Below, one piece after another: positions 11,958 to 39,488 of a stretch of 55,124 nucleotides of DNA. Made by a program: the position numbers and the translations under genes. Origin of the DNA: an uncultured Pseudomonadota bacterium (GTDB taxonomy: Bacteria > Desulfobacterota > Syntrophorhabdia > Syntrophorhabdales > Syntrophorhabdaceae); NCBI GenBank assembly GCA_937862865.1, contig CALMFJ010000156.1:1-55124 (forward strand), in the 5' to 3' direction. The notes below the pieces were generated by a model. The model had not been told where the DNA came from, did no database searches, and was given only the letters and a program-made list of their open reading frames with translations. The number at the start of each line of letters is the position of its first letter. The stretch's first letter is position 1.

Positions 11958-14900
11958 TCAGGCGTGATGCGCCGGCCTGGTCTGGCATTCCTCGAGAAGC
12001 GTGTCGCATCCAGGGTGGCCATGCCCGCTCTTTATCATGCCTTCGAGAAGGAGAACGGCTGTATCCGTCTTGCCCGCGGATATCAACTTCCTTGACAGGG
12101 AGTAAAGCATCTCGGAACAATCGAACGACATCTGCCTCATTTCGAACAATTCATGCAACCCTTGTTCCTCCATGCGGGACGCCAGGTACACAGCCCCGAG
12201 CGTTGCCTTGCCGGTAGGATACGGGGGTATCTTCCGGAGGAGGCCTTCGAGGTTTCTCATGGCCTCACCGGCATCGTCGCGGAAAAGAGAAGCGGCAGCG
12301 TAGCACTGAGCGGCTTCCTTGGAGGCCGGGTTCAGTTCAACGGCTTTCAATGCGGCCCTGTAGGAATCCTCGAACTGCCCGAGTTCGAAATAACACCCCG
12401 ACATATTGAAGTAGGGCAGGTAACTGCCGGGATTCACAGCGGTGTATCTCTTCCATAACCCGATGGATTCTTCATGTTTTCCCAGGCTGCGGGCCTGTAT
12501 CGCCAGTTCGCGGAGCGTTGCTTCGTTATCTCCCTCCATCTCGAGCTTTTTTCTGCCGATGTCATAATACATGAGGGCCTTCGCCTGCGACCTTTCCTGA
12601 TTCGCCTGTCCGTAATGATGGATGACGACATCGCAGGGCCTTATCTCGATCCCTGATTTATTCAGTGACGGTTCAAGCAGTTCGTGGATCGGGTTTTCGA
12701 ACCGGAACCTCGGGTCGTTGGTGACCAGCCGGACCTTGGGGCTGGGGAACCAGCCTGTGCCCGCTTCCTCCTCGGGATATTCCCCTGAATTCGCCGTCCA
12801 TCCTTCGTAAACAGAGTCCGTCGAATAGTTCCGCGTAATGAGCGAATATGCGGCCGGAGCTAAGGCCCCGGAACCGAGGATCGCGCGGAGTTTGCCGTAA
12901 TCCCGGGGCGAAATGACCTCGTCGGCGTCGTGAACGAGTATCCATCGTCCCCGGGCCCTGGACATCGAGTAATTCCTGGCCGCGGAAAAATCGTTTGCCC
13001 AGGGAAAGTCAAAGACCTGCGCCCCGAATGCGCGCGCGATATCTTTTGTTCTGTCGGTCGAGCCCGTGTCGACGATGATTATCTCGTCAGCAACGGGTTT
13101 CAGGCTTGCAAGGCACCGGGCGATCCTGTCTTCTTCGTCTTTTACGATCATGCACACGGAGAGCGTGCCTGTCCGGCCATTCGTGTCTGCGCGTGCCGAG
13201 CCGAGCCTGTCACGGACCTTTAGCGCGGCCCCCAGGATCCCGTCGTCTATGCCGAACGTGATCATTGCCTTTTCGGTCTCCTCCATCGCCTGCCGGTTCT
13301 TTCCCTGTTGCAGAAGGGCGCCGATATATTTGAAGGTAAGGGTTTTGTTCCGGGGGTAGAGCCCGATGGCTTCCCCGAATATCTTCTCCGCACGCCCGAA
13401 TTCGTTAAGGGACGAAATGGCGGAATAATATGTCGTTGAAAAGTCGCTTGTTTCGGGGGAAAGGATAAATGCCCTTTCAATATAGTCCAGCGCTTCATTA
13501 TCTTCGCCCCTGTTCCATTTCATGATCCCGATATTCATGTATGGCTCTGCAAACCCCGGCTCAAGGGCAATTGCGTGCCTGAAGAACTCCTCGGCTTTTT
13601 CCTGTGAGCTCATCTGGAGCGCTATCAGGCCTGTCAGATTAATTGCTCCTGTTGAGCGGGCGGATATCGACAGCGCCTGGTTGATATAGGCGCGCGCATC
13701 GTCTATCCTGCCACGGTTGTAGCTGCACGCCGCGTATCTCTCAAGGTGATCGAGCGTCGTCTTCATAGTGCCGGGGACAGACCGCAGCGCCTCATCGGCC
13801 TGTTCGTAAAGCTTCGCATCGGAGAGGATATCGGCCAGGCACCAGTAAAGCGGTCCTTCGTCGGGAATGAACTTTATGCCGTCGATGATGTCCTGAACGG
13901 CCTCGTCAAGCGACCCTTTCCGGTAGTGGTCCCGGGCATTCTTCACTGTGACGGCAGACAGAAGCTTACGGCCGGTTTCCGAATTGGGGTTGAATGTGTC
14001 CCACTGCATATTGAAGGATCCGTCCGTGGTCTTTTCCCGCGGTTCCTCATTATCGAGGTACGCGTAACTGTCTGCCGCGACAACGCTCTGGTATCCCTCA
14101 ATGAGGGCCCTCATACGAAGGTCGTTCAGGACGTGGTAAGGCGTGCGATATTCTTTCATAAGGCCTGCGCGTTCAAGGACGGTCCTTTTGACAAGCACGC
14201 AGAGGGAATCACATTCATAGGTCAGGGCGACCCGATGCCTGTTGCGTTCCGCGGCTTCCTTTACATAGGATAGAAAGTGGTCGAACGAAAGGGCCCCGGT
14301 CCCCGGGATCTCCTGGGTGCCGATCGCCCGATTGGCAAGGGGCACTGCCATTCCATGCATGGGGTCCCTGTCGAGGCATTCCAGCAACGCCGGGATCGTG
14401 CCCGGCAGGACATGTACATCGGGACCGATGATGAGAATGTACTCGCCCCGGGCGTTCTTGATCGCCGCATTACAGGCCGACGCGTACGTTGTGCCGCCGG
14501 GATGCCTGATCATGGTGCATTCCGGATACCCGGCGATCATCTTTCCGGGCCAGGCTGATGTATCATGGCCGGAATCCGGGATAACAAAAAGCTCATGCGG
14601 GGCTTCTATGTTCGCCCGCAGCGACGCGATGCAGCTGCCGGCCTTTTTCTCATCACCGGAGATGTGTACAATGACCGAGACAAGGCCTGCTGTCGCTTCC
14701 GAGGCGATGGTCCTGTTGCTGAGTATATTTTCGAAGTCTGAAACGGCTTTAAGAAACTCGGCCTCTGTTGTACAGGGGCTGGCCTTTTGCTTGAGGGACG
14801 GGGCATGGTTGGCATCAAGGTACAGGGCGAACGCGAGCTGGACGGACTCTGCGTCATAAAAGCCGCACATGCGAAGAAGCTGTGCGTAAAAGCAGAAAAG

Positions 14901-16106
14901 GTCCGGATTCCTGTAAAAGTGCATATATGCCATCGCCTGCAGCGCTTCCCGGTAAAATCCTTTTTTCGCGAGGCCGACCGCATGTGCGAGGCGCTCGCTG
15001 TCGGGCATCTGTTCCGTCCCGCCGGCACTATTCTCGTAGTCTATAAGGGGAGATCTCATGTCTGCAAGCTCCTCGAACGTCCAGCGCGGCCCTGCATCGA
15101 TGAAATTGTGTTTTTCCGTGAGCGGCACCGGCTTCCATGCGGTGTCATGGCCGACCAGGGCATCGTGGTCCATGCCTGTTCTTTCGGCGTAATACCTCAC
15201 AAATTTGTCGTACAGCGGAGACCAGGAGAACGGGCGAAGACCGCCCCCGGCGACCCATGTGTCAATGTTCTCGATGTAGCGGAGGTACTCATTGTCCGAT
15301 AATGATCTCAGGTATGCATCGAGTTCCTCATACCCTGCAAAGTCCCGGAAATCGATGAAGCAGGACTCTGGTATATAGTCCTCGATATTCGGGCATCCGA
15401 GATATATGGGCAATGAACGCGCCTCCAGAGGATCGAGGATTTTGTCGACATAACCCTGTGCGAGGACAGGGTCGCCCGTGTTTTCGAAACAGAGCGAGTA
15501 CTTGTAGCGTGAAAGCGTCTCGAGCTTTTTATTATTTCCGATCTGCCCCCGGTAGTTGGGCAGGAAGAAAGGCAGGAAGCCAAAGACATCAAGCGGGATA
15601 TCAGAGTGAAGGGAAAACCACAGTGCTGCCTCGATCCGCTTTGAATACAATTCGCCGGGTACGGTCGAATGCTTGTTCCCGTTGATAAGGCATATCGCGT
15701 TGGCACGGTCCCCGACGGGGTATCTCCGGGCTCGTTCCCCGATGTCTTCAGTGATCGCCGTATCGTCGCTTTCGCCGAACCACGGGTGGAAGCCCTGGCG
15801 TGTAAGCACGTATTTCGTAAAGCCGTATCTCTCGATTATAGCGTCATAAAGGGTAAAAACGTGGTCAAAGTGCTTCCAGAGGTCTTCGTTATATTGCCCC
15901 GGTAAAACGACACTCGGCTCCATGAGCATAAGGGTGTTGATGCCCTTTTGGCGGCCGGGGAAACTGAACGCGTCCCAGTACACATACATATCGCAATCGA
16001 TGATTGGCCGTGCGGTGTAAACGAGAAGAACATCCCCTCTGCCCATTGCAGAGACAAAATCTGGTTTTAAATGCGCGTATACGACGTTGATGATGGTCCT
16101 GTTCAT
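11958..16106 (-). CDS. Multidomain glycosyltransferase: GT10-like, GT2, TPR, GT2, TPR
   Basis: A 1382-residue cytoplasmic protein. Residues 1-300 resemble GT10 alpha-fucosyltransferases: YKYSLCFENT (about 201-210), then GYVDKILDPLEARSLPIYLG and a following YIPESCFIDF. Residues 475-690 form a first GT2 domain (LVSVIVHISG, ARGEYILIIGPDVHVLPG). Residues 715-975 contain TPR repeats (LYWCLADILSDAKLYEQADE; PYMNIGIMKWNRGEDNEALD). About 980-1200 is a second, canonical GT2 domain (LSVCMIVKDEEDRIARCLAS, VDTGSTDRTKD, acidic HDADE). TPRs occupy the rest. I chose ATG 16106 because it overlaps the hddC stop (ATGA) and has a GGGG/AGG site. An in-frame upstream start at 16154 would overlap hddC. It is the last gene of the sugar island and probably transfers several sugars to one acceptor; flagellin is a candidate by proximity. 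Confidence 0.88.
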   Translation of the reverse strand: MNRTIINVVYAHLKPDFVSAMGRGDVLLVYTARPIIDCDMYVYWDAFSFPGRQKGINTLMLMEPSVVLPGQYNEDLWKHFDHVFTLYDAIIERYGFTKYVLTRQGFHPWFGESDDTAITEDIGERARRYPVGDRANAICLINGNKHSTVPGELYSKRIEAALWFSLHSDIPLDVFGFLPFFLPNYRGQIGNNKKLETLSRYKYSLCFENTGDPVLAQGYVDKILDPLEARSLPIYLGCPNIEDYIPESCFIDFRDFAGYEELDAYLRSLSDNEYLRYIENIDTWVAGGGLRPFSWSPLYDKFVRYYAERTGMDHDALVGHDTAWKPVPLTEKHNFIDAGPRWTFEELADMRSPLIDYENSAGGTEQMPDSERLAHAVGLAKKGFYREALQAMAYMHFYRNPDLFCFYAQLLRMCGFYDAESVQLAFALYLDANHAPSLKQKASPCTTEAEFLKAVSDFENILSNRTIASEATAGLVSVIVHISGDEKKAGSCIASLRANIEAPHELFVIPDSGHDTSAWPGKMIAGYPECTMIRHPGGTTYASACNAAIKNARGEYILIIGPDVHVLPGTIPALLECLDRDPMHGMAVPLANRAIGTQEIPGTGALSFDHFLSYVKEAAERNRHRVALTYECDSLCVLVKRTVLERAGLMKEYRTPYHVLNDLRMRALIEGYQSVVAADSYAYLDNEEPREKTTDGSFNMQWDTFNPNSETGRKLLSAVTVKNARDHYRKGSLDEAVQDIIDGIKFIPDEGPLYWCLADILSDAKLYEQADEALRSVPGTMKTTLDHLERYAACSYNRGRIDDARAYINQALSISARSTGAINLTGLIALQMSSQEKAEEFFRHAIALEPGFAEPYMNIGIMKWNRGEDNEALDYIERAFILSPETSDFSTTYYSAISSLNEFGRAEKIFGEAIGLYPRNKTLTFKYIGALLQQGKNRQAMEETEKAMITFGIDDGILGAALKVRDRLGSARADTNGRTGTLSVCMIVKDEEDRIARCLASLKPVADEIIIVDTGSTDRTKDIARAFGAQVFDFPWANDFSAARNYSMSRARGRWILVHDADEVISPRDYGKLRAILGSGALAPAAYSLITRNYSTDSVYEGWTANSGEYPEEEAGTGWFPSPKVRLVTNDPRFRFENPIHELLEPSLNKSGIEIRPCDVVIHHYGQANQERSQAKALMYYDIGRKKLEMEGDNEATLRELAIQARSLGKHEESIGLWKRYTAVNPGSYLPYFNMSGCYFELGQFEDSYRAALKAVELNPASKEAAQCYAAASLFRDDAGEAMRNLEGLLRKIPPYPTGKATLGAVYLASRMEEQGLHELFEMRQMSFDCSEMLYSLSRKLISAGKTDTAVLLLEGMIKSGHGHPGCDTLLEECQTRPAHHA

Positions 16107-16864
16107 TGTCCTGCCCCTGTTTGCCGCTGCGGCCTTCTGTGCGGTCCCCGGCATATTTCTGCGAGAATATATGCATGCTCGTTTATGTACCGGTATGTTT
16201 CGGGTATCCCGATATCAATGAAAAAGCCCCGGGAGACGAATCCCCTGATCCCGATATCCAGTATGCCCGGCAGAAGGTCGGCCTCAAATGAGAACCGGCC
16301 GCCAGGCATGCGGTCCACCAGGCCTTTCTCAATGATATATATGCCGCAGTTTATATAGCCCGGCCCCGTACCTTTCTTTTCGTGGAGACCTGTGATCCTG
16401 TTCGCTCCGTCTGTGCCGACCGATCCGTAGCGCCCTGCATTGTCAACGAAGATGAGGCCCATTGTCACGATATTTCCCCGCGACAGGTGAAATCTTTCCA
16501 TCTCCCTGAGGTCGACATCGTTAAAAGTGTCGCCGTTGAGGACGAAGCAGCGAGAACAATCTGCCATTTTCATCGCTTCGCGGATCGCCCCGCCCGTCCC
16601 GAGGGGACTCTCTTCCCGGCAGTAAGAGATGCGCGCGCCGAAGGAAGAACCATCGCCGAAATAACCCTCGATGACCCCGGCCATATGCCCTACGGAGATT
16701 ATTATGTCCCGCATTCCCTGTGACACGATGAAGTTGATGATATACTCGAGGAACGGCTTGTCTCTGACCGGCGCCATCGGTTTCGGCACATCGGCAACGA
16801 CATCCTTCAATCGCGTACCCATGCCTCCGGCAAGCAGTATGCATTTCACAGGCAAACCCGTCAC
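16103..16864 (-). CDS. hddC: D-glycero-alpha-D-manno-heptose 1-phosphate guanylyltransferase-like (HddC)
   Basis: A 253-residue nucleotidyltransferase. The signature ILLAGGMGTRLKDVVADVPK, then PMAPVRDKPFLEYI, sits at the N-terminus. GTGGAIREA and the metal-binding FVLNGDTFNDVD follow. It ends with a FIDIGIPETYRYIN block typical of HddC and related GDP/CDP-sugar synthases. The expected reaction is heptose 1-phosphate plus GTP giving GDP-heptose. HddA directly upstream and a GmhA-GmhB fusion at the head of the operon make the heptose assignment much more likely than mannose or glucose. The start is GTG, overlapping the hddA stop (GTGA); the following glycosyltransferase overlaps its own stop in the same way. 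Confidence 0.87.
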   Translation of the reverse strand: MTGLPVKCILLAGGMGTRLKDVVADVPKPMAPVRDKPFLEYIINFIVSQGMRDIIISVGHMAGVIEGYFGDGSSFGARISYCREESPLGTGGAIREAMKMADCSRCFVLNGDTFNDVDLREMERFHLSRGNIVTMGLIFVDNAGRYGSVGTDGANRITGLHEKKGTGPGYINCGIYIIEKGLVDRMPGGRFSFEADLLPGILDIGIRGFVSRGFFIDIGIPETYRYINEHAYILAEICRGPHRRPQRQTGAGQ

Positions 16865-17856
16865 GAGGCCTCTTCGGTATAATAGACAATCTGGCTTCCG
16901 AGGGTGTCGAAGCGGAAGGGTACGTGAAGGAGAAAATGAAGGGCGTTTTTGATCTTTTCCCTCTTTTCGGGCCGGACAAAGAACAGCATGAAACCGCCGC
17001 CCCCGGCGCCCAGGATTTTTCCGCCGATCGCACCGTTCTTCTTTGCCGTTTCATAAATTGTGTCGATATAGGGGTTCGTTACCCGGGGAGACAGGCCTTT
17101 CTTCAATTTCCATGTCTCGTGGAGCAGCTTGCCGAACTCCATCATTTCTTTTTCGCCGGCAAGGATTGCAACGGCCTCATTGACCATTCCCAGCAGTTCC
17201 TTATAGTTCGCCTTTTTATCTTTGACCTTCCCCATCTTGTCTTCTTCGATCTTTGACGCGGACCTGGTGACTCCGGTAAAAAAGAGAAGGAAATGGTCCT
17301 GAAGCTCGATGAACGCATCGCGGCCCATGGTGACAGGTATGACCTGGATATTGTGCTGCTTTGTAAACTCGATCTTGTTGAGGCCCCCGAACGCTGCCGC
17401 CACCTGGTCCTGTGACCCCACCGTTTCCTTGATCATGTTTTGCTCGATGTGTATCGCTTCCAGGGCAAGCCTTTTTTTGGAAACGATCCTGCCGTTCAGC
17501 GCGTACAAAGCATGAAGGAGGCCCACAGTAAATGAGGAACTCGAACCGAGGCCCGACATGGCCGGGAGATCACCGTCGTGACTGATGGAAAGTCCCGACG
17601 TCACATCCATGAAACGGAGAGTTTCCCTGATCGATGGATGGATGATCTCGTTGACCCCTCCGGCCTGCTCCTGCTTTGAATAATTGAGCCTGTAGCGATA
17701 TTCAAAGAATGGAGGGAGTTTGCGGCAGTTTATGTAGCAATATTTGTTGATCGTCGTGGAGAGGACTGCCCCGCCTCCATTTTGCTCATACCATGTCGGG
17801 AAATCGGTGCCTCCCCCAAAAAACGAGATTCTGAATGGTGTTCGGGTAATTATCAT
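16861..17856 (-). CDS. hddA: D-glycero-alpha-D-manno-heptose-7-phosphate kinase-like (HddA)
   Basis: A 331-residue GHMP-family kinase expected to phosphorylate C1 of heptose 7-phosphate. It starts MIITRTPFRISFFGGGTDFP, the HddA-type opening with the substrate loop. It has the ATP-binding motif PAMSGLGSSSSFTVGLLHAL near 100-120 and the C-terminal GHMP motif KILGAGGGGFMLFF. The ribosome site GAGAGGAAG lies just before the ATG. It overlaps hddC by four bases. The 163 bases upstream, up to the methyltransferase stop, have no gene, so this pair may have its own promoter or simply be read through. Within GHMP kinases the sequence is closer to heptose than to galactose or fucose kinases, though fucokinase-like activity is not excluded. 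Confidence 0.88.
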   Translation of the reverse strand: MIITRTPFRISFFGGGTDFPTWYEQNGGGAVLSTTINKYCYINCRKLPPFFEYRYRLNYSKQEQAGGVNEIIHPSIRETLRFMDVTSGLSISHDGDLPAMSGLGSSSSFTVGLLHALYALNGRIVSKKRLALEAIHIEQNMIKETVGSQDQVAAAFGGLNKIEFTKQHNIQVIPVTMGRDAFIELQDHFLLFFTGVTRSASKIEEDKMGKVKDKKANYKELLGMVNEAVAILAGEKEMMEFGKLLHETWKLKKGLSPRVTNPYIDTIYETAKKNGAIGGKILGAGGGGFMLFFVRPEKREKIKNALHFLLHVPFRFDTLGSQIVYYTEEAS

Positions 17857-18019
17857 TGCTTCCTCTCGAATCGCACTTTATGCAAGATATACGCAGGAAA
17901 TTATGCAAGAACAGTACCATAATGGTGTTGAGAAGCCGCAGGTGCCGGCCGGGATGGCCCCCGTTGGACCAAAAATGTTGTCATGTGCGGTACCGGGGGC
18001 GCAGCACGGTGCGGCGGCT

Positions 18020-19057
18020 TCAGTATTCGATAGCCAGGAAGTCAACATCGTTATTATCTTTGTTGTTGTCGACAAATTTCTTGGCAATCAGGTAGCTGTT
18101 GTGAGGATTTTTTTGACAGGTGTCAATAAATCGTTTGGCATCGTTCTCGACCCTGCGTCTCTTTCGTGCGGCACAGTGGCGTACAAACTCGAGCAGTCTC
18201 TTTCTCTCTTCATCGCCTTCGACACATTCTGAGACAATTTCAGCCGCAAGATCGAAAAAGCCTGTGATGGCCGCGCACATGATCAACACATCGATCTGCC
18301 TTTTCGTAAAATCGAGGCCCGAGTTTGTCTCATCCAGGGGGTCCCGGAAGTAGATCGCGTCGGCCCAGAGAGCCCTCTCGTTTGTTTCATATTCCTTTCT
18401 GTCCAGCATTCGCCGGGAAATGTACTTCGGTGTCAGGCCGTATAATACAAAACCTTTTGAACGCAGCAATGGATCAATATCGGAGAATGTCTTCTGATTT
18501 TCGTAGATCGGGTAGAATTCAACTTCGCACCAGACGGACATGCATTGCGTACCGAACGCCTCCGGGGATGCCTCGATGATCTCGTATTCGGCGCCCTGGC
18601 AATCGAGTTTAATTATCTCAGCCTGGTAGTCGATCTGTGAGTTTATCCCGGCGACGATCGAGTCGAGGGTCCTCACAGGCAGGTTGACCGTTTCCTTTAT
18701 ATTGAGCCCGGTCTTGCCGTAGCGGTCGCGTATATGGGTGCCGGGCCTTAAGAGCGACGATGTGACGCCGTTGCGGGTGAGAAAGAAGTCTGCCCGGCCG
18801 TCCCGGGCGCCTACGATCGTATTATGGACGGTCATCCCGGCAAAGGGGCTGCTGTCGGTTCCCGTCAATGCACCGAAAGCGGCCGGATCGGGCTCGAAGC
18901 ACAGACAATGTGTAATGGACGCCACGGGGAGCATCCGGGGGTGGACGCCTCCGGCTGCGCCGATATCGATGAAACGAAGCGGTGCCTGTGAGAATTCTGC
19001 GCCGGGCCTGGTCCGACGGAAAATACTGCTGTTCGATATGGCATTGAGCTCTTCCAT
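18020..19057 (-). CDS. FkbM-family SAM-dependent methyltransferase
   Basis: A 345-residue protein with a FkbM-type methyltransferase fold. The SAM-binding motif I is LRFIDIGAAGGVH near residues 28-40. Then come CLCFEPDPAAF (acidic residue for SAM ribose) and a later EIIKLDCQGAEYEIIEASPE block characteristic of FkbM proteins. These often O-methylate sugars or polyketides. The start is uncertain. ATGs at 19060 and 19057 follow an AGAGGG site, and 19057 has the better spacing. A more upstream in-frame ATG (19150) would overlap the upstream gene by 76 bases. The C-terminal 100 residues are helical and have no recognised domain. Glycan O-methylation is the likely role by context. Confidence 0.85.
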   Translation of the reverse strand: MEELNAISNSSIFRRTRPGAEFSQAPLRFIDIGAAGGVHPRMLPVASITHCLCFEPDPAAFGALTGTDSSPFAGMTVHNTIVGARDGRADFFLTRNGVTSSLLRPGTHIRDRYGKTGLNIKETVNLPVRTLDSIVAGINSQIDYQAEIIKLDCQGAEYEIIEASPEAFGTQCMSVWCEVEFYPIYENQKTFSDIDPLLRSKGFVLYGLTPKYISRRMLDRKEYETNERALWADAIYFRDPLDETNSGLDFTKRQIDVLIMCAAITGFFDLAAEIVSECVEGDEERKRLLEFVRHCAARKRRRVENDAKRFIDTCQKNPHNSYLIAKKFVDNNKDNNDVDFLAIEY

Positions 19058-19074
19058 CATCCCTCTTCTTTCGG

Positions 19075-20109
19075 CTACAGTTTCGGCATCTTGTCGGTGT
19101 TGTATGCCAGGTCGCTTCCCGAGGCGACGGATGCGTATTTGCCCAGGCAAAGCTCGACAATCTCATCAAACGAGAGAATTTCGGGCGAGATCTTTTGATA
19201 CATTCTCGGGATCCCGAAATAAACATGCCTGTCCGCGAAGCGCAGTTCAGCCGTTTTCCTGAAGCCTATTTTTTCAAGGACCCTGTCGTAGTTGATGTTG
19301 TGCGTGCCCGGTTTTAAGATCTCGCTGTCACGGATATAGAAACAGCCGCCCTCCTTGATCGTTCTCGACGCATTGGCAAGGACCCATAGAATGCCGGCAT
19401 AATTGAGCTCGTTGAGAACGAATGTGGCCGACATGATGTCCGCGGACGCGTCATCGATCCAGGGGAATCTCCAGGAAGGGAGATGCTTGATCCTGTAATT
19501 GCCGGAATTTATTTCCTCGCGTATCGCCGGCCCCGGCAACTGGTAATTCTCGCATTCGACCGCATCCAGGTAGGCACCGGGATAAGGCGACATGAACCTG
19601 AAATAATGCCTCTGGACCTCGTAGCTCATCGGGCTTGCTTCAAGGGCGTAGAAGCGTGAGTTGAGGAACCTGGTGCTCGAGGAGGCGGCGCAACCGAGGC
19701 CCGGGCCGATATCGATGTGATTGGGGGTCTCCGGCAGACCGGGGCAGTACTTTTGAATAAAGAAAAGGTCCTGCGCCCGCGCCAGGGCCTGCGCTTCCAC
19801 GTGGTTTTTCCACGTATCGGAAAACGTGAGAAAAGGGAAGAAATGCTTGAACGAACGGGTTATTTCAGAGATCATGTATCCGTTGACCTCGTCATGATTA
19901 TCCATGATGAGGGCCTCAGGAGTGTCTTTCTTCACGTACCACATCGAATAGTAGAATCCGACGGCGTAAAGCCCCCTGAGGCTGAGAATGTTGCTTTTGT
20001 GTTCATTTTCGGCCCATACGAACGGCGAGCCTATCCGCGTCGCCTTATCGCCGAATATCCATCCCTGTTCAACAAGCGCTCTTTCCATTGAGTTCATGAT
20101 ATCGTTCAT
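19075..20109 (-). CDS. Putative sugar O-methyltransferase
   Basis: A 344-residue SAM-dependent methyltransferase candidate. HIDIGPGLGCAASSSTRFLN (about 142-161) is a clear motif I. FYALEASPMSYEVQRHYF follows, and later a SADIMSATFVLNELNYAGIL strand-helix block and GGCFYIRDSEI. The architecture resembles the family annotated as putative sugar O-methyltransferases in polysaccharide loci; the substrate cannot be read from the sequence. ATG 20109 has a GGAG site nine bases upstream. An earlier in-frame ATG at 20202 would overlap the GNAT gene by 62 bases. It lies 17 bases before the FkbM methyltransferase, and the two may modify different hydroxyls of one glycan. Confidence 0.75.
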   Translation of the reverse strand: MNDIMNSMERALVEQGWIFGDKATRIGSPFVWAENEHKSNILSLRGLYAVGFYYSMWYVKKDTPEALIMDNHDEVNGYMISEITRSFKHFFPFLTFSDTWKNHVEAQALARAQDLFFIQKYCPGLPETPNHIDIGPGLGCAASSSTRFLNSRFYALEASPMSYEVQRHYFRFMSPYPGAYLDAVECENYQLPGPAIREEINSGNYRIKHLPSWRFPWIDDASADIMSATFVLNELNYAGILWVLANASRTIKEGGCFYIRDSEILKPGTHNINYDRVLEKIGFRKTAELRFADRHVYFGIPRMYQKISPEILSFDEIVELCLGKYASVASGSDLAYNTDKMPKL

Positions 20110-20140
20110 AGCCTTATCTCCGTTCCGCAGTTGTTTTGTC

Positions 20141-21070
20141 CTAATAATTCGAGGCATCCGACTGGACCAGATGCCACCGTTCGAATGCGTCCAGCGGGTC
20201 ATTGCCGCACACCCCCAGGAGCTTGATCCCGAAATGGCTGCAATGGCCGGACTGACTGAATCCCATGTCCTCGATCGTCCGGCGGAGTGTGGTCCCGGGA
20301 ACAGCCCATGTCGAGACGGCCGATGCGCCCATTGTCGTCAACGCAAAGGAGGCCGCCGCGTAGAGCTTTTCGATGGCATCCCGATCGCGAATGTCGCATT
20401 CGATATCCACGATATCGCCTGTAATATCCCGCGAAGCGGGCGTTGTGAAAAGCTTGACCACCGCATACTCGCTGTCCGAAACGGACACCTTGAAATACCG
20501 GTAGACGGAGCTTCCGGCATAGCGCCACGATCTGTAGGCATCGGTGCGGGCAAAGGTCGTAGGCCGTCCGGACAGGCCGTTTAAGGGGAAAGCGGTGCGG
20601 CTGTCTACCGGTTCGAGGTCGTACGTCACTGCAGCAAGAGGACCGGCCGGCCCCCGGACCATGTGATGGAGTCTTCCGATGAATGCCATGCCGAGCTTTT
20701 TTTCGGCCGGTACGACCGCCGCCTTGTTTGCAAAGATAAATATAAAATCGAGGCCCGGCATCGATTCGATGGCGCGGCCCGCCATCATTCCGAAAAGTCC
20801 GTGCCTCTGATGGTCTTTCGCGATCACGATCCAGCTGAGCTGACCGCCGCTTAGGCCGCCTGTGGTCCTGAGACGTTGTATGCCCAGAGTTCCGACGACC
20901 CTGCCCGCATGCTCGGCAATGACGATGACGGCGGGATTTGGGTTCGCAAAGCACTGCCACCGAAAGAAGGCGGCATCCCTTTTGTATTCGGAATATATTT
21001 CCTTCTGGATGGCGACCATCCCGGCGATATCTTCGGGCCCTCCGGCCCTTATCGTAAAATTATCGGGCAT
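20141..21070 (-). CDS. GNAT-family N-acetyltransferase
   Basis: A 309-residue protein whose N-terminal half is a GNAT domain. FTIRAGGPEDIAGMVAIQKE is at the start. AGRVVGTLGIQRLR forms the beta strands, and LSWIVIAKDHQRHGLFGMMA contains the acetyl-CoA loop (QRHGLFG). A NKAAVVPAEKKLGMAFIG segment closes the domain near 113-132. The C-terminal 150 residues are less typical and may hold a second, degenerate GNAT-like unit. It starts three bases after the RmlC-like gene. In sugar loci such enzymes usually acetylate aminosugars or hydroxyls, and acyl transfer to a glycan is the likely job. The exact substrate is unknown. Confidence 0.8.
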   Translation of the reverse strand: MPDNFTIRAGGPEDIAGMVAIQKEIYSEYKRDAAFFRWQCFANPNPAVIVIAEHAGRVVGTLGIQRLRTTGGLSGGQLSWIVIAKDHQRHGLFGMMAGRAIESMPGLDFIFIFANKAAVVPAEKKLGMAFIGRLHHMVRGPAGPLAAVTYDLEPVDSRTAFPLNGLSGRPTTFARTDAYRSWRYAGSSVYRYFKVSVSDSEYAVVKLFTTPASRDITGDIVDIECDIRDRDAIEKLYAAASFALTTMGASAVSTWAVPGTTLRRTIEDMGFSQSGHCSHFGIKLLGVCGNDPLDAFERWHLVQSDASNY

Positions 21071-21073
21071 GGT

Positions 21074-21589
21074 CTAAACAAAATGTCCTTGTTCGTCGCG
21101 CCGGGACAGGATCGGGTCTTTCACGGGCCACCATATGCCGAGGGACGGGTCGTCCCACGTATAGGTGAACTGGCCCCGCGGGTTATAATTGGTGCTCTGT
21201 TTGTAGTGAAAGATGGCGGTATCGCTCAGCACAAGATGGCCGTTGCCATGCTTTGGCGGCACGAGCACCTGCAGGTGGTTCCGGTCCGAAAGTGTGAACG
21301 ATTGCCATTGCCTGAACCGGGGCGAGGCTTCGTCGCAGTTCACCACTACGAAATAGAACCGGCCGTAAAGACAGGAGATAAGCTTCCAGGTTTCCCGGTC
21401 GCCGTGAATTCCCCTCAGCACGTGGCGTGACGAGGTCGATATGTCGTCCTGGACAAAATCGACGTTTATGCCGGCACCCCTGTAGAGGTCGCTGTTGTAC
21501 AGTTCGATGTAATCGCCCCGGAAATCCTCGAACATTGTCGGAGGTTCGATGAGAAGTACACCTTCCAATTGTGTTTCCGTCACTTTCAT
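21074..21589 (-). CDS. dTDP-4-dehydrorhamnose 3,5-epimerase (RmlC)-like sugar epimerase
   Basis: A 171-residue cupin with RmlC features. LLIEPPTMFEDFRGDYIELY is near the start. HVLRGIHGD (about 56-64) carries the catalytic-type histidine, and VLVPPKHGNGHLVLSDTAIF follows. A C-terminal YTWDDPSLGIWWP corresponds to the usual W-D-D-P-x-L-x-I-x-WP ending. I start at ATG 21589 because of its GGAGAG site and because longer versions would overlap the radical SAM gene. Campylobacter uses RmlC-like epimerases (DdahB type) on GDP-4-keto-6-deoxy-heptose, which fits the GDP-heptose genes here better than dTDP-rhamnose, since no rmlA, rmlB or rmlD is visible. Confidence 0.87.
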   Translation of the reverse strand: MKVTETQLEGVLLIEPPTMFEDFRGDYIELYNSDLYRGAGINVDFVQDDISTSSRHVLRGIHGDRETWKLISCLYGRFYFVVVNCDEASPRFRQWQSFTLSDRNHLQVLVPPKHGNGHLVLSDTAIFHYKQSTNYNPRGQFTYTWDDPSLGIWWPVKDPILSRRDEQGHFV

Positions 21590-21611
21590 GGTTTCTCTCC
21601 GGGCATTCCTT

Positions 21612-23009
21612 TCAGGAATCGGCGGCCATCTTGTGCGCGTACAATTCCCGCAACTGCCGCACGACGGCCGTGTCGTGCCTGTTCTCGAATATGCGCCGCG
21701 CTTCGTTTTCATCAATAAGCGGTATAAGGCTCGCAAGCTGGTAATAGAAATTGTCCTGGCTGAAATCGAAGTAATTGCTCGCGTACGGATCGATCCGCGG
21801 GACCATGTTCCGTTTTCTGTACATGGCTTCAAGGTCCGTGCGCGGGAAAACGGTCATCGCAAAAAGATTGGCGATAAAAGGCTTCGGGATCCTGAGCATG
21901 AGCTCGATCGTCTTGTCCCTGTCTTCGTCGGTCTCAAAATCATTCTCAATTATAAAGTCATACATGCATACGAGGTCGTGTTTTTTCAGGACGCTCACCG
22001 CGCTAAGCACTTCATCGACCTTGTACGACCGATGAAAAATTGTCCTGTGCGTCTTTTCGCTCCCTGACTGTATTCCCATCTGGACCGTCTGCAGCCCGGC
22101 GTCCTTCAGCCGGGTGATATACCGGTCCTTAACGGTCCCGGGTGTGGCCCTGATTATAAAGGGCAGGCGGATGTCCCTCCTGTATTTCTCGCAGAACTCG
22201 ACAAGCCATTTCTCGTCGGTCAGGAAATGATCGTCCATGAAATTGATAAATCCGATCCCGGGAATGGTCGCCAGCGCATGAGATATTTCAGCCAGGGTGT
22301 CATCCACGGTCCGCCTTCTGTACAATCTCCTTACGTTGTTCGTATAGAGGCGATTGAGGAACGAGTTGATGCAGTACGAGCAGCGGTGCGGGCACGACCG
22401 GGAGGTCAGGAGAACGTATCCGTCCCCGTTGTGCCGCGCGTACCTGACATAATCGGGCGGCCCGAATTGATGGAGCCCCGTGCCGTCCAGCACGCGAAAA
22501 TGCTCGAAATGGAAGCGCGGGAAGGGCAGTGCATTCAGGTCCTCGATCAATGCGGGCGGGTTTATGATATCTTCCCCGTTGGTCCTGATGCCTATCCCGG
22601 GTATGCGGGAGATGTCCCGTCCGGCCCTCAATGTCCGCACGAGCTCAGGCAGGAACACCTCACCTTCTCCAAGGCATAGAGAGTCGGCATGATCAAGGCA
22701 CTCCCCGGGCTTCGATGTAGGGTGAATACCGCCCCACACAATGTGCGCGCCGGGCAGGTGTTTCCGGACATGAGCGGTGACTGTTCTTGCGAAGTAATAA
22801 TCCCGTGTCGTTAGAGAAATACCGACCACTTTGAATGCGTTGTCTGCCAGATATTGTGCAAATTCCCGTTCGGAATATTCGGCGACGCGGGGTATGAAAA
22901 GCAGGTTCGTCGATATCCCGTCATGAACGGCGCTTGCGTACAGGGACAGGCAGCCGATGTTGCGGTGGCTGTCGGATGCAATGGATATCAGGAGAAGCTC
23001 ATTCTTCAT
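21612..23009 (-). CDS. B12-binding-domain radical SAM protein (second of two)
   Basis: A 465-residue protein. The N-terminal 150 residues look like a cobalamin-binding domain (VVGISLTTRDYYFARTVTAH; AHIVWGGIHPTSKPGECLDH; a D-x-LCLGEGE motif). The core is a radical SAM domain with CPHRCSYC (C-x3-C-x2-C) near residue 210 for the 4Fe-4S cluster, then LQTVQMGIQSGSEKT. Such class B enzymes perform methyl transfers to unactivated carbon, or other radical chemistry. It lies 22 bases before the epimerase and just after the transketolase C-half. Together with the 24703-26178 gene it suggests C-methylation or rearrangement of the island's sugar. The family is very broad, so the reaction is not predicted. 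Confidence 0.87.
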   Translation of the reverse strand: MKNELLLISIASDSHRNIGCLSLYASAVHDGISTNLLFIPRVAEYSEREFAQYLADNAFKVVGISLTTRDYYFARTVTAHVRKHLPGAHIVWGGIHPTSKPGECLDHADSLCLGEGEVFLPELVRTLRAGRDISRIPGIGIRTNGEDIINPPALIEDLNALPFPRFHFEHFRVLDGTGLHQFGPPDYVRYARHNGDGYVLLTSRSCPHRCSYCINSFLNRLYTNNVRRLYRRRTVDDTLAEISHALATIPGIGFINFMDDHFLTDEKWLVEFCEKYRRDIRLPFIIRATPGTVKDRYITRLKDAGLQTVQMGIQSGSEKTHRTIFHRSYKVDEVLSAVSVLKKHDLVCMYDFIIENDFETDEDRDKTIELMLRIPKPFIANLFAMTVFPRTDLEAMYRKRNMVPRIDPYASNYFDFSQDNFYYQLASLIPLIDENEARRIFENRHDTAVVRQLRELYAHKMAADS

Positions 23010-23010
23010 G

Positions 23011-23931
23011 TCAGTTTACCTTCACAATTTTATGGGGGCCGGCGCGCCGTGCGGGCGCTTCAGAACATCCTGAATATTCCAGGACGGCGTTTCTGATGCC
23101 TGCCGGATCAAGCCCGATCTCCCGCCTGATGTCATCGAGCGCCCCGTAATAACAACAGAATTCGTCGGGCAGTCCGTGATATGCGGCCTTGACGCCGCCC
23201 GCTGCAGTAATGGCTTCGAACAGGCCGAAGGCATCGTGGACAACGATGAGATCGGTATCGTCAAATTTCCTCAGGAGCGATACGTCGAGGGGCTTTATCG
23301 TGGGGAAATACAAGATGTTCACGGGCAGGCCGGAGCATGCCTCTGCGACGTTCCCAAGGATGGGCCCTGACGTTATGACCGTCACCTCCGCCCCTTTCGT
23401 CTCCTGAACAATGATCCCTTTCCCGAACTCGCACGGCAGGTCGAGCCCGTGCCCATCCGCGGCTATCCTGATATAGGAAGGGCTCCCGTTTTTATAGCAG
23501 GCGCGGAAGAGGATATCGAACTCCTTTTTCGAGCCGGGCTGCATGACCTCCATGCCCGGAAGCATCCTCATAAGCTCGAGGTCTGTATAGCAATGGTGGG
23601 TCGCACCGTCCCAGGCATAATCGAAGGAGCCTCCGACCGTTACGATGGTGCAGCCGAAGCGGTTGTAACACAGGTCCAGTTTGACCTGTTCGTAGCTGCG
23701 CTCCGTGACGAAAGGGGTTATCGTGTGGACCACGGGGCGATAGCCCGTTGCGCTCATCCCGGCGGCCATGCTTATCAGGGTGTTTTCGCATATCCCGATG
23801 TTGAGGAGGCGTTCCGGGTATTTCTGCGAGAAATCGTTGAAAAGAAATACGCTTATGTCCCCGAACAGGAGGACGAGCCTGTCATCTTCTTCGGCGAGCT
23901 GCAGCACCGTTTTCTTAAACTGCTGTCTCAT
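23011..23931 (-). CDS. Transketolase C-terminal half (split transketolase subunit)
   Basis: A 306-residue subunit with the transketolase pyrimidine-binding fold. NIGICENTLISMAAGMSATG (about 44-63) contains the catalytic-type glutamate that activates thiamine diphosphate, and VVHTITPFVTERSYEQVKLD follows. The C-terminal domain reads GAEVTVITSGPILGNVAEA. ATG 23931 is preferred: GGGAGAG precedes it and it overlaps the N-half gene by 17 bases. An earlier in-frame ATG (23997) would overlap by 83. It pairs with 23915-24697 to form one enzyme. In a heptose locus the sensible reaction is making or breaking sedoheptulose 7-phosphate, the substrate of GmhA. Other ketol transfers to a sugar are possible. 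Confidence 0.88.
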   Translation of the reverse strand: MRQQFKKTVLQLAEEDDRLVLLFGDISVFLFNDFSQKYPERLLNIGICENTLISMAAGMSATGYRPVVHTITPFVTERSYEQVKLDLCYNRFGCTIVTVGGSFDYAWDGATHHCYTDLELMRMLPGMEVMQPGSKKEFDILFRACYKNGSPSYIRIAADGHGLDLPCEFGKGIIVQETKGAEVTVITSGPILGNVAEACSGLPVNILYFPTIKPLDVSLLRKFDDTDLIVVHDAFGLFEAITAAGGVKAAYHGLPDEFCCYYGALDDIRREIGLDPAGIRNAVLEYSGCSEAPARRAGPHKIVKVN

Positions 23932-24697
23932 GGAGCTCTCCCAGGAGTATTTCAAGTTCGTGTGCGTCGGGGCTTCTGCGGTGCCACGCGAAGACATCGT
24001 TGACGAGCGTCCGGCATCCGGCCCCCTTTACCGTGTTGGCCACGACCGCTCGCGGCCTGTCCGCCTTCAGGGCGAGGGCCTCGCGGATTGCGGATACATC
24101 GTGGCCTTCAACCGATGTGACATCAAACCCGAACGCGGAGAATTTCCTTTCAGGGTCCCTAACCGGGAGACATCGCGCCTGGGAACGATTGTTGTCGAAA
24201 ACGACTGTCATATTATCGAGCGACCGGTGCGCGGCGACCATAAGCGCCTCCCATACGGTGCCCTCGTTTGCCTCGCCGTCGCCGACCACCACATACACCC
24301 TGCGGTCCGAGCCGGACATTTTCAATCCCAGCGCCATGCCCGTTGCCACTCCTATTCCGTGGCCCAGAGAACCGGTCGACAGCTCGATCCCGGGGATCTT
24401 GAACCGGTCCGCATGGCAGCCGAAACGGGACCCGAAGCCCCCGAATGCATATACGTCCTGTATCGGGAAATAACCGAAATGCGCAAGCGTGCAATAAAGC
24501 CCGAGGGCGGCGTGCCCCTTGCTCAGGACAAAAAGATCGCGCTCAGCCCAATCCGGATCGGCCGGGTTGTGCCTCATGGTCTCATAGACGGCGCGAAGCG
24601 TTTCAACGACCGAAAAGCAGGTCGGGATATGCCCGTGCCCGCTATGATGAGATATTTTTAAAATGCTTTCCCTTATCTGCAGTGATAATCCGTCCAT
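23915..24697 (-). CDS. Transketolase N-terminal half (split transketolase subunit)
   Basis: A 260-residue thiamine-diphosphate-binding subunit. HHSGHGHIPTCFSVVETLRA is at the start, then DLFVLSKGHAALGLYCTLAH. The cofactor motif reads VVVGDGEANEGTVWEALMVA with a downstream FDNN (GDG...NN type, about 136-167). GSLGHGIGVATGMALGLKMS is the typical preceding loop. Its stop overlaps the start of the C-terminal subunit by 17 bases, so the two are co-translated. The two radical SAM genes flank the pair. Split transketolases occur in archaea and in secondary-metabolite or polysaccharide loci, where they serve dedicated pathways rather than central metabolism. Confidence 0.9.
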   Translation of the reverse strand: MDGLSLQIRESILKISHHSGHGHIPTCFSVVETLRAVYETMRHNPADPDWAERDLFVLSKGHAALGLYCTLAHFGYFPIQDVYAFGGFGSRFGCHADRFKIPGIELSTGSLGHGIGVATGMALGLKMSGSDRRVYVVVGDGEANEGTVWEALMVAAHRSLDNMTVVFDNNRSQARCLPVRDPERKFSAFGFDVTSVEGHDVSAIREALALKADRPRAVVANTVKGAGCRTLVNDVFAWHRRSPDAHELEILLGELHETAV

Positions 24698-24702
24698 GAG
24701 CC

Positions 24703-26178
24703 TTAATCTCCGAGGATCTTCCTTTTCAGTTTGATGGCCGTCATTTCCTTTAAGTGGTCCCGGGCCCCGGGCCCGAATTTTGCCTCGATCATGTTGAGGT
24801 AGGCCGGGTTCTTGAAATAGGTATCGAAGGCGTAGTCCCGGAATTCAACAATCTGGGCCGCCGACAGATGCTCGGTCGGGAGGGGTTGGAACTCATACCC
24901 CTGTGAGGCGTACCCCAGCCACGTATCGGGCAGAGGATATCCTTTCTCCAGGGCCTCCCCGTAGAGGTCAGACCCGGGTATCGCCATAGCGCAGAAAAAA
25001 CTGGGAAAGGCCGGCATGAGCTCCAGTGCCAGGTTAAGGGTGTCCTGCATTGACCCGTAATCATCGCCCGGCAGGCCGAACATGAAATTCGCGCAGAATT
25101 CTATGCCGGTTTCGTGGGCCTTTGCCACCGCGTTCCTTACCGAGTCGATCCCATATGAGTCTTTCCCGACGTTCGCCCTGATGTGGGTATTTCCCGTCTC
25201 TATCCCGAGCTTGAGCCAGTGAAACCCGGCTTTTTTCAGGGTTGTGAGATCTTTCATATCGAGCCTGTCGAGGATGTCTACCCGGGCGAATGCGTTGATG
25301 TTGAGGTCGTATCCCCTCTCGATCAACCCCTCGGCAATGGGCATGTAATGCCGCGGGTTAAAGACAAAAAGCTCATCATGGATGTTTATGTGCCGTACAC
25401 CGTATGTGTTGACGAGCGTATCGATCTGCCTTAAGACCCAGTCCGGGCTCCAGTAGCGGATCCGGTGCTCGCCGTATGTGGCGTGTATCGCGCAGAAGCT
25501 GCACTTAAACGGGCAGCCGAGGCTCGTGAAGATCGAGGCGAATTTTGTGCGCTCGCTGAAGTCCTTGAGGCACATCCAGCTGAACGCACGGTATTTGTCC
25601 ATGGGCAAAAGGTCCCAGGCAACATCGGGAAGTTCGCCTGTAAGGTCCCGGATATTCTCGGGCGCCGGTCCGTGCATGACGCCTGACCCGTTTCTCCACC
25701 AGAGCCCCTTGATGTCCCGGTGGTCTTTCCCGGCAATAATGTCGGCCAGGGCATGAAAGCCTTCACCTTTAACAAGAAGGTCACAGGCCTCTTCTTTCAG
25801 CGTCCTTTCGGGAAGCGCGGACGGATGCCACCCGGTCAGGATCAGGGCCGTTTCGCTCATGCGCTCCTTGATCTTCCGGCACAGGTCGCCAACAGCGACC
25901 ATTATAGGCGCCGATACATTGGCCTGCTGGCTGTAGCAGACAATAGCGATAAACCGGGGATTGGCCTTGCTGAGATATTCCACCGTCTCGTCAGGGTCGA
26001 GGTTCAGTGCGTTTGCGTCAAGGATATCCACATGAAAACCCCGGTTCCTGAGATACCCCGCCGTCAGGGCGGCCCAAAAGGGTGTGTCGATTGCCGAGAA
26101 GACCTTACCCAGGTCCTGGTACACCTGTTTGCGGGTTCCCCCCGGATTGACGAGGACTATGTCGGGATTATGCGTCAT
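24703..26178 (-). CDS. B12-binding-domain radical SAM protein (first of two)
   Basis: A 491-residue protein with the class B architecture. The N-terminal cobalamin-binding-like region has IVLVNPGGTRKQVYQDLG, then DTPFWAALTAGYLRNRGFHV, and LILTGWHPSALPE with a D-LLVKGEGF motif. The radical SAM core has SLGCPFKCSFCAIHATYGEH (C-x3-C-x2-C) near residue 220. FHWLKLGIETGNTHIRANVG and EFCANFMFGLPGDDYGSMQD follow. It starts 88 bases after the dehydratase stop and ends 5 bases before the transketolase N-half. It is clearly related to, but diverged from, the 21612-23009 protein (the cysteine motif is CPFKCSFC here and CPHRCSYC there). Substrate unknown. Confidence 0.88.
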   Translation of the reverse strand: MTHNPDIVLVNPGGTRKQVYQDLGKVFSAIDTPFWAALTAGYLRNRGFHVDILDANALNLDPDETVEYLSKANPRFIAIVCYSQQANVSAPIMVAVGDLCRKIKERMSETALILTGWHPSALPERTLKEEACDLLVKGEGFHALADIIAGKDHRDIKGLWWRNGSGVMHGPAPENIRDLTGELPDVAWDLLPMDKYRAFSWMCLKDFSERTKFASIFTSLGCPFKCSFCAIHATYGEHRIRYWSPDWVLRQIDTLVNTYGVRHINIHDELFVFNPRHYMPIAEGLIERGYDLNINAFARVDILDRLDMKDLTTLKKAGFHWLKLGIETGNTHIRANVGKDSYGIDSVRNAVAKAHETGIEFCANFMFGLPGDDYGSMQDTLNLALELMPAFPSFFCAMAIPGSDLYGEALEKGYPLPDTWLGYASQGYEFQPLPTEHLSAAQIVEFRDYAFDTYFKNPAYLNMIEAKFGPGARDHLKEMTAIKLKRKILGD

Positions 26179-26204
26179 GCCTGGCCCTTTACTGATATGA
26201 ATAT

Positions 26205-26225
26205 ATGGCGCAGAAGAAGCGCCAT
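26205..26225 (-). other. Short inverted repeat in the 88-base spacer
   Basis: ATGGCGC and GCGCCAT (seven base pairs, seven-base loop) lie after the dehydratase stop. A second palindrome, GTGGCGCCAC, is at 26249-26258. No T-run follows on the minus strand, so a full terminator is doubtful. An mRNA-processing or attenuating structure is possible. Confidence 0.4.
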
Positions 26226-26266
26226 CGGAGAGTCGAAATACACCTCATGTGGCGCCACTGTTCCTG

Positions 26267-27277
26267 TCATCGCGTAAGGAACCCTTTGCCTGCACGGACC
26301 CGTGTGCGCCAGTAATCGAGAAGGTCCGTCATTGTTGTCTCGAACGGGATCTCCGGCTTCCATCCCGTGTGCGCCCCGAATTTCGACGTATCGGGGACCT
26401 GCAGGTCCGCATCGAGCGGGCGCAGCCGTTCCGCATCGGTCTCGACGCGAATATCGTCCTTTGCCGTGGAGACGCTGATAAGGAATTTCAGCATATCGCC
26501 GACCGTGCACGAATAAGTTCCGCCTATGTTGTAATACTGCCCGGGAACAGGGTTGACGGTGAGAAGCATGTAGTATGCCCGGACCGCGTCACGGACATCA
26601 GACCAGGTGCGCATGGAATCGAGGTTTCCCGTCTTCACGACGGGCGGGATCAACCCGTGCTCGATCATGGCGATCTGTTTGGCAAACGTCGATTCCGCGA
26701 AAACGTCTCCCCTTCGCGGCCCCGTGTGGGTGAACATGCGTGTCACCATTATTTTCTGCTTGTATGCCTCTGCATGGAACCGGCCGATCATATCGGTCCC
26801 GATCTTGGAGATCGCGTACGGGGATGCCGGGTGAAAACCGCATTCCTCGTTAATGGGCAGTTTCTCCCGGGGGACCCTTCCAAAGACCTCCGACGATGAG
26901 CACACATGGATCAGGGGATCGAGGCCCGATCGTCGGATTGCCTCGAGCAGGCGTGCAGTTCCCGTTATGTTCGTCTGAAGGGTATCGATCGGAGACGAGA
27001 AGCTCGTTTTCGGATAGCTCTGCGCGGCCAGGTGAAAGACATAGTCCGGTTCACTCTCTTCCACGATATTAATGAGAGAAACGTAATCGTTGAGATCACC
27101 GTTCAGAAAATAGACCCTCTCTTTCCGGTTTGCCATGTCGAGGAGGTGCTCGACGTTATCGAGCGGGCTTCTCCACCGGCACATTCCGTATATGTCCCAA
27201 TCCGTGTTCGCCAGAAGAAAATCGCAAAGATGCGAACCGACCATACCGGTTATTCCCGTGATGAGGGCTTTTTTCAT
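26267..27277 (-). CDS. GDP-mannose 4,6-dehydratase-family NDP-sugar dehydratase
   Basis: A 336-residue extended short-chain dehydrogenase. The Rossmann motif ALITGITGMVGSHLCDFLLA is at the N-terminus, and YVFHLAAQSYPKTSFSSPID is GMD-like. The active site has HVCSSSEVFG and a SPYAISKIGTD block (Y-x3-K). VTRMFTHTGPRRGDVF and TWSDVRDAVRAYYMLL are also typical. GMD removes C6 oxygen of GDP-mannose to give the 4-keto-6-deoxy sugar. In a locus with HddA, HddC and GmhA/GmhB, the likely substrate is GDP-D-glycero-D-manno-heptose, as for the related DmhA/DdahA enzymes. A GDP-mannose substrate cannot be excluded. The start overlaps the upstream stop by one base (TAATG). Confidence 0.88.
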   Translation of the reverse strand: MKKALITGITGMVGSHLCDFLLANTDWDIYGMCRWRSPLDNVEHLLDMANRKERVYFLNGDLNDYVSLINIVEESEPDYVFHLAAQSYPKTSFSSPIDTLQTNITGTARLLEAIRRSGLDPLIHVCSSSEVFGRVPREKLPINEECGFHPASPYAISKIGTDMIGRFHAEAYKQKIMVTRMFTHTGPRRGDVFAESTFAKQIAMIEHGLIPPVVKTGNLDSMRTWSDVRDAVRAYYMLLTVNPVPGQYYNIGGTYSCTVGDMLKFLISVSTAKDDIRVETDAERLRPLDADLQVPDTSKFGAHTGWKPEIPFETTMTDLLDYWRTRVRAGKGFLTR

Positions 27278-28425
27278 TACATAGCTTTCCTTGTTCGCAT
27301 GTCGTCGTAGATCACACGGTGAGCAGCTTCGAGTATGCCTGCAGCTGTCGGTGCCGTGTCACCTTTTCCGTCCGTGGTAATGCGCACGGTATGCAATCCG
27401 GCCTTTTCCCCGGCGATGATGTCCTTCTCGGAATCGCCGATCATATAGCTCCTCGTCATGTCGATGGAAACGCCCTTTCTCCGGTAGTCGCGGACAGCCA
27501 TTTCAATAAGGCCCGGCGCCGGTTTCCTGCATGAACAGTTCTCGGCGGCGGTGTGCGGGCACATATAGACAGTGTCGATACTGCCTCCATGCCGGCGAAC
27601 CTCGCTTTTCATGTGTTCATGGATCGCCCCGACGGTGTCCGGGGACACCATGCCTTTGCCGATGCACTGCTGATTTGTGATGACAACAACGAGATAACCG
27701 CTGTCATTAAAAAGTTTGATAGCCTCGAAAACGCCCGGCAGGATGGAGAATTCTGAAACGGACGTGACGTAATCGCCTTCCGGTTTTTTCTCATTGATGA
27801 CGCCGTCCCTGTCGAGGAAAATGGCCGGTGCATCGACGGAAAACAACCTGTTCTCGATCATTTCGCACATGACATGGCCAAGTGTGATGTGCGCCTCCTG
27901 TATCCGGGGTGTTACCATCGACGGTACTGCTACCAGGTAATCACACAGGTCTTCCATATTGTTCGGCCGCTGCCCCGTAAAGCCGACGGTTATCATTTTC
28001 CGCCGCCGCGCTTCTTCCAGCGCTTTTACGACGTTTGGAGAAGATCCGGAGGTTGAAAGCGCCAAAAGAACGTCTCCCGGCCTTCCCTGCGCCCTGACGA
28101 GCCGCGCAAACACATCGTTGTATGAATAATCGTTCGCAACGGCCGTCATGTACGACGTGTTGACGTGCAGCGCTTCCGCAAAAAGAGGCTGGCGGTCAAA
28201 AAAGAACTTGCCGGAAAGCTCTGCGGCTATATGCTGGGCATCCGCCGCGCTTCCGCCATTGCCGCATGTCAGGACCTTGTGGTCTTTTCTGTAGGCCTGT
28301 ATGACAGCGTCGGTCGCAGCAGCGAGAATGTCCGGTATTGCTGAGTCTTCGAGAATACCCGTCAGGACGGCGACGGTCTCGTTGACTGCCGAAGAGAAAG
28401 CGGACATAAAGTGTGTGTTCTGCAT
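27277..28425 (-). CDS. gmhA/gmhB: GmhA-GmhB fusion: sedoheptulose-7-phosphate isomerase and heptose bisphosphate phosphatase
   Basis: A 382-residue bifunctional protein. Residues 1-190 are a SIS-domain GmhA (VLTCGNGGSAADAQHIAAEL; DVLLALSTSGSSPNVVKALE). From about 200 there is a HAD-family GmhB phosphatase with AIFLDRDGVINEKKPEGDYV (catalytic D-x-D), VVVITNQQCIGKG, and the zinc-binding loop CPHTAAENCSCRKP, ending MIGDSEKDIIAGEKAGL. The two activities are usually separate genes. Here one chain would isomerise sedoheptulose 7-phosphate and later remove the C7 phosphate, with HddA acting between. ATG 28425 has a GGGAGAG site. An in-frame ATG at 28497 lacks support. It is the first gene of the island. 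The roughly 190-base upstream gap is shared with the divergent sigma-28 operon. Confidence 0.9.
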   Translation of the reverse strand: MQNTHFMSAFSSAVNETVAVLTGILEDSAIPDILAAATDAVIQAYRKDHKVLTCGNGGSAADAQHIAAELSGKFFFDRQPLFAEALHVNTSYMTAVANDYSYNDVFARLVRAQGRPGDVLLALSTSGSSPNVVKALEEARRRKMITVGFTGQRPNNMEDLCDYLVAVPSMVTPRIQEAHITLGHVMCEMIENRLFSVDAPAIFLDRDGVINEKKPEGDYVTSVSEFSILPGVFEAIKLFNDSGYLVVVITNQQCIGKGMVSPDTVGAIHEHMKSEVRRHGGSIDTVYMCPHTAAENCSCRKPAPGLIEMAVRDYRRKGVSIDMTRSYMIGDSEKDIIAGEKAGLHTVRITTDGKGDTAPTAAGILEAAHRVIYDDMRTRKAM

Positions 28426-28633: not shown

Positions 28634-28660
28634 TTAAGCGTATCTTCCTTCGTGCGATAA
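28634..28660 (+). promoter_or_regulatory. Sigma-28 promoter upstream of the 480-residue protein
   Basis: TTAAGCGT (28634-28641), 11 bases, TGCGATAA (28653-28660). It shares CTTAAG-N16-CGATAA with the flagellin promoter. The predicted start site is about 25 bases before the ATG at 28692. It lies in the 266-base divergent spacer between the sugar island and the late motility genes. No confident minus-strand promoter was found there. Confidence 0.82.
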
Positions 28661-39430: not shown

Positions 39431-39488
39431 TATCACAACATTCACATAAAATCCAGCTTGCGTCGGGCCTTTGAGGGGAAAAGCGAAT

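Follow-up and report, generated by a model that had tools for sequence, protein, structure and literature searches.

Keto sugars are branched by enzymes that depend on thiamine diphosphate (ThDP), such as YerE and alpha-keto acid dehydrogenase 2; known enzymes that add C2 branches include E1-type pairs (PMC12247030). Split-gene transketolases have been proposed for this role solely in Streptomyces and were never assayed; each of the 13 reported belongs to secondary metabolism in Streptomycetes (PMC12247030). In the GDP-6-deoxy-heptose pathway of Campylobacter jejuni the 4-keto group is reduced by a C4-reductase, and the paper describing it mentions neither a transketolase nor a branched heptose (PMC10680097). 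Here we describe a split transketolase (TK) encoded within a GDP-heptose gene island of an uncultured bacterium. The window, that is the whole stretch of DNA analysed, comprises the 55,124 nucleotides of contig CALMFJ010000156.1 (C156), and the island occupies 11958–28425 as 13 co-directional, often overlapping minus-strand genes. The host genome (2.64 Mb, 96.5% complete) is Syntrophorhabdus-like, and close relatives of the window TK are held by Syntrophorhabdus metagenome-assembled genomes. All evidence is sequence-based, and metagenome assemblies may miss genes; on this footing we judge it as likely as not that the product of the island is a branched, GDP-activated 6-deoxy-heptose destined for the flagellum and formed through TK-catalyzed branching at the C4 ketone.

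The island resembles the C. jejuni pathway (PMC10680097) in its enzymes from sedoheptulose 7-phosphate (S7P) to GDP-heptose, a 53%-identical 4,6-dehydratase and a C3/C5-epimerase of the same family. It differs in carrying a split TK and B12 radical S-adenosylmethionine (SAM) proteins and no reductase, whereas the C. jejuni pathway ends in C4-reductases, and in its flagellar rather than capsular setting. Split TK genes inside a keto-sugar-making cluster are the arrangement of the proposed ketone-branching class. The miharamycin and amipurimycin clusters likewise pair a two-gene TK, for which hydroxyacetyl transfer was proposed, with keto-sugar genes (PMC12247030, section 2.3); this likeness is one of description rather than direct sequence comparison, and the present case differs in its GDP-heptose, anaerobic hosts and flagellar locus. 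Matches of TkC, one of the two TK subunits, on Streptomyces plasmids were at 30–36%. With YerE and alpha-keto acid dehydrogenase 2 the island would share ThDP-dependent C2 addition to a deoxy-keto sugar, and one related locus (L114) has an E1 alpha/beta-type pair beside the same dehydratase. However, those enzymes use a pyruvate/acetyl donor, while the island TK belongs to another ThDP family and is predicted to use a hydroxyacetyl donor. A literature search for transketolase together with heptose or flagellin found nothing useful.

Results and Discussion

The two-subunit TK named in an earlier note on this DNA is encoded by tkN (23915–24697; Transketolase_N, 1.1e-35) and tkC (23011–23931, likely start 23931; Transket_pyr, 1e-22). 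The nearest solved structures are 6yak and 6yaj, respectively, of the Carboxydothermus split TK, which has the same two-subunit architecture. Both subunits were aligned with E. coli TktA from the MG1655 record, and ten TKs of the clade were tabulated. TkN and TkC keep H26, H66, H100, D155, N185, H261, E411, D469 and H473 (TktA numbering), the set serving ThDP/Mg and the two-carbon donor. Substrate phosphate is bound in TktA by R358, S385, H461 and R520. Three of these are replaced in 10/10 tabulated TKs (S385 by F/Y, H461 by G and R520 by A/D), leaving one of four, R358, in the island enzyme. The Carboxydothermus TK, in contrast, keeps the H461- and S385-type residues in the printed alignment. 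The same genome encodes an ordinary full-length TK (652 aa, contig C87) with S385 and R520 equivalents kept and, by eye, that of H461. Given the residue losses and this ordinary enzyme, S7P is neither required of the island TK nor probably made well by it. We infer that attachment of a two-carbon branch to the activated heptose is a likelier role of the island TK than supply of the heptose precursor.

As the earlier note had proposed, an enzyme is present for each step of a GDP-(6-deoxy)-heptose-type pathway up to the 4-keto sugar. GmhA, GmhB, HddA and HddC of the C. jejuni-type pathway were all identified as family matches, each under its NCBI equivalog cut-off. The GmhA-GmhB fusion (S7P isomerase and heptose bisphosphate phosphatase; 27277–28425; SIS_2, 1.9e-25, plus HAD-IIIA phosphatase) scored 177–187 bits with GmhA models and 160 bits with the GmhB model, and contains the sole clear GmhA in the host genome. 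HddA, the heptose 7-phosphate 1-kinase (16861–17856; GHMP kinase; NF049969, 153.8 bits), and HddC, the heptose 1-phosphate guanylyltransferase (16103–16864; NF049965, 189.6 bits), best matched the heptose-pathway structures 3k85/4n3o and 5xhw/6jq8, respectively. The dehydratase (26267–27277) matched the C. jejuni GDP-heptose 4,6-dehydratase 7us5 at 372 bits and 53% identity, with the next entry at 183 bits. GDP-mannose enzymes reached at most 143 bits, and identity as a GDP-mannose dehydratase was rejected on these scores. The RmlC-type GDP-4-keto-heptose 3(,5)-epimerase (21074–21592, likely start 21592; dTDP_sugar_isom, 4.4e-45) best matched the C. jejuni GDP-4-keto-heptose epimerases 8dco/8db5.

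The predicted route would proceed from GDP-6-deoxy-4-keto-heptose, formed by the dehydratase and possibly epimerised by the RmlC-type enzyme. Where C. jejuni uses a C4-reductase, the split TK would act here: it would take a hydroxyacetyl unit from a donor that carries no phosphate, for example hydroxypyruvate, and the TK-bound two-carbon unit would attack the 4-keto group to give a C2-branched tertiary alcohol of nine carbons in all. The B12 radical SAM proteins, methyltransferases and GNAT could then decorate the branched sugar, before a giant tetratricopeptide repeat (TPR) glycosyltransferase would attach it to flagellin.

Linkage of TK and dehydratase was seen well beyond the window. The dehydratase occurs in 7/46 genomes of the order, in all seven with the split TK in the same island and in six with B12 radical SAM protein 1 (rSAM1) beside it, and in 9/395 genomes of the phylum. 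Fifteen dehydratase loci from the order and phylum scans were compared with 20 true GDP-mannose dehydratase loci of the same phylum. A split TK lay within about 10 kb at 11/15 versus 0/20 (Fisher p 3e-6) and any ThDP pair at 12/15 versus 0/20 (p 5e-7), p-values that are optimistic because many of the 15 loci are closely related. TKs at dehydratase loci form two separate clades. At L114, which adjoins flagellar genes, a pyruvate dehydrogenase (PDH)-E1 alpha/beta-like pair takes the place of the split TK, and such pairs also occur in a GDP-heptose context at L113 and L117. The latter two hold the pair and a split TK in one cluster, perhaps for two branching steps.

The contig scan with single-protein tkC gave 8 loci, more distant members requiring an alignment. 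Lentisphaeria loci, found via tkC and left out of the co-occurrence test, have a matching gene order (dehydratase-Nudix-rSAM1-tkN-tkC-methyltransferase-epimerase-hddA). Conservation of the island block in relatives excludes chance. Another island (G017; L052 and L073) shares the dehydratase, epimerase and HddA/HddC and also carries two different split-TK pairs, several short-chain dehydrogenases/reductases (SDRs) and aldo/keto reductases.

The island was described in the earlier note as self-contained, which is doubtful since it has no C4-reductase. No second SDR or C4-reductase was found in the island or its six closest Desulfobacterota siblings, giving 0/7 for the loci with a close TK (window, L037–L041 and L095). 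Dehydratase loci without a ThDP pair had another SDR in 3/3 cases, RmlD-like and adjoining the dehydratase in L115 and L116. An Ensifer adhaerens plasmid locus found with the dehydratase (GmhA, HddA, HddC and dehydratase plus an RmlD-like SDR, with no TK) fits the same pattern, and a second plasmid locus found likewise, in Azospirillum sp. TSA2s, agrees with the linkage of TK and dehydratase. Reductase absence is nevertheless no rule, because TKs of the same broad clade have SDRs nearby in Azospirillum (L182) and Geobacter (L083).

These two loci count against branching at C4, as does the relatedness of the loci behind the p-values. So do retention of the phosphate ligand R358, the presence of split TKs in sugar clusters elsewhere in the order that have no GDP-heptose genes, and 13 other SDR-type matches in the host genome, among which a C4-reductase could be encoded. 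We also know of no activity of such TKs on a ketone acceptor. In a rather unlikely alternative, the TK would extend or trim some other carbon chain within this glycan, be it a separate branched sugar, a side chain at another carbon or a post-transfer branch, and an SDR encoded elsewhere would reduce the heptose 4-keto group. The 13 SDR-type matches would suit it, as would related-clade split TKs in clusters without a GDP-heptose dehydratase (L042–L051, L071 and L096–L100) and the rSAM1 relatives that, in other clusters, have a TK or E1 pair as neighbour. It fits poorly with the strong TK-dehydratase association, the gene order kept across phyla and the fact that none of the seven islands whose TKs are closest has an SDR.

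The possible flagellar destination was assessed from the island surroundings. On one side lie FlgG-FlgH-FlgI-FlgM-FlgN-FlgK-FlgL, flagellin (9746–10873, plus strand; Flagellin_N/C) and the flagellin regulators FlbT and FlaF (11154–11907, plus strand; PF07378 and PF07309), and on the other a CheY/HD/PilZ/MotA/MotB operon. FlbT and FlaF are best known from alphaproteobacteria and here occur in a Syntrophorhabdus-like genome. Flagellin residues 111–290 include 51 Ser/Thr. A perfect sigma-28-type site (4432–4458) precedes FlgM (at 4487), a site with two mismatches (9595–9621) precedes flagellin, and a near match (28635–28660) precedes the far motility operon. The earlier note's sigma-28 operon at that end is preceded by this sigma-28-like promoter; family searches found no sigma factor in it.

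The giant glycosyltransferase (11958–16154, 1398 aa) lies in the same strand-coherent cluster, as had been noted, and combines TPRs with one GT10-like and two GT2 domains. Orthologues occur in 16/46 order genomes; those inspected adjoin flaF/flbT/flagellin or, in one case, a cheY-motAB operon, with differing sugar cassettes. The Caulobacter protein FlmG, which modifies flagellin, also combines TPR and glycosyltransferase domains in a flagellin system with FlaF (PMC7591256). FlmG, however, has 596 aa, a single GT-B domain and pseudaminic acid as its sugar. Membership of the FlmG class was rejected on domain order (GT10-like, GT2, TPR, GT2, TPR versus an N-terminal flagellin-binding TPR region and C-terminal GT-B), and the island protein is at most a functional analogue. 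Flagellin is the likely glycan target in view of the glycosyltransferase neighbourhood, the FlmG precedent and the sigma-28-type sites. That the product is a surface polysaccharide and the flagellar location a mere insertion site, which is compatible with either TK role, appears unlikely. The Lentisphaeria operon adjoins a flippase-like gene and other relatives have the operon away from flagella, but the island has no flippase or polymerase, and the giant glycosyltransferase stays beside flaF or a motility operon in inspected relatives whichever sugar cassette it accompanies.

Local S7P supply to GmhA, the TK role suggested in the earlier note and one that would make ordinary GDP-6-deoxy-heptose the product, is improbable: the TK-family enzyme has intact ThDP machinery and shares an operon with GmhA and the GDP-heptose enzymes in the window, G014 and G009, but S7P supply was rejected as its main role on the pocket losses, the ordinary TK on C87 and weak linkage to GmhA, which lies near 3/11 dehydratase-linked TK loci in the phylum, is present without a TK in the Ensifer locus and is absent from an Azospirillum sp. 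TSA2s plasmid locus with dehydratase (72%) and TK (63/53%). The two TK pairs of the G017 island also count against this role.

The remaining genes named in the earlier note were, like those above, all found at the claimed place and strand. Both B12 radical SAM proteins (rSAM1, 24703–26178; protein 2, 21612–23009) have Radical_SAM and B12-binding domains. rSAM1 is 73–84% conserved and adjoins or lies near tkN in sibling islands, and is among the best-kept partners (81–84% in order siblings). Its nearest solved relative is AprD4 (6fd2), making diol dehydration as possible as C-methylation. In most sibling islands the dehydratase is separated from rSAM1 by a Nudix hydrolase (L038, 11103–11699, with homologues in L037, L039, L081, L082 and L095), which is absent from the window, G008 and G009. 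Relatives of rSAM1 (43–46%) occur in clusters without a GDP-heptose dehydratase (L071, L100, L184, L185, L186 and L187). Most of these clusters also encode HddA-like kinases, and several encode Nudix proteins, a split TK or an E1 pair; the set includes plasmids of Azospirillum and Solidesulfovibrio magneticus.

The claim of two methyltransferases held for the FkbM-family protein (18020–19060, likely start 19060; PF05050, 5.6e-13). The putative SAM methyltransferase (19075–20109, likely start 20109) has a SAM-like motif only, with no Pfam or NCBIfam family match and no usable fold by structure prediction without an alignment (pLDDT 35). The GNAT-like acyltransferase (20141–21070; Acetyltransf_1, 1.3e-5) is a weak match that exceeds the Pfam cut-off. 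Elsewhere in the window, 39471–43634 encodes a 1387-aa BadF/BadG-type ATPase with DUF2229, resembling CoA-dehydratase activases.

Conclusion

A wider proposal, which we place a little short of evenly balanced, is that this split-TK family of Desulfobacterota, Lentisphaerota and Alphaproteobacteria switched from phosphosugar metabolism to C–C bond formation on GDP-4-keto-heptose, giving branched nine-carbon sugars of surface and flagellar glycans. The locus points to GDP-6-deoxy-4-keto-heptose as a defined, likely acceptor that known C. jejuni enzymes can produce, and plasmid p2 of Azospirillum sp. TSA2s provides a cultured carrier; the branching idea is therefore directly testable. If true, it would reveal branched heptose glycans of a new class, along with a new biocatalyst that makes tertiary alcohols.
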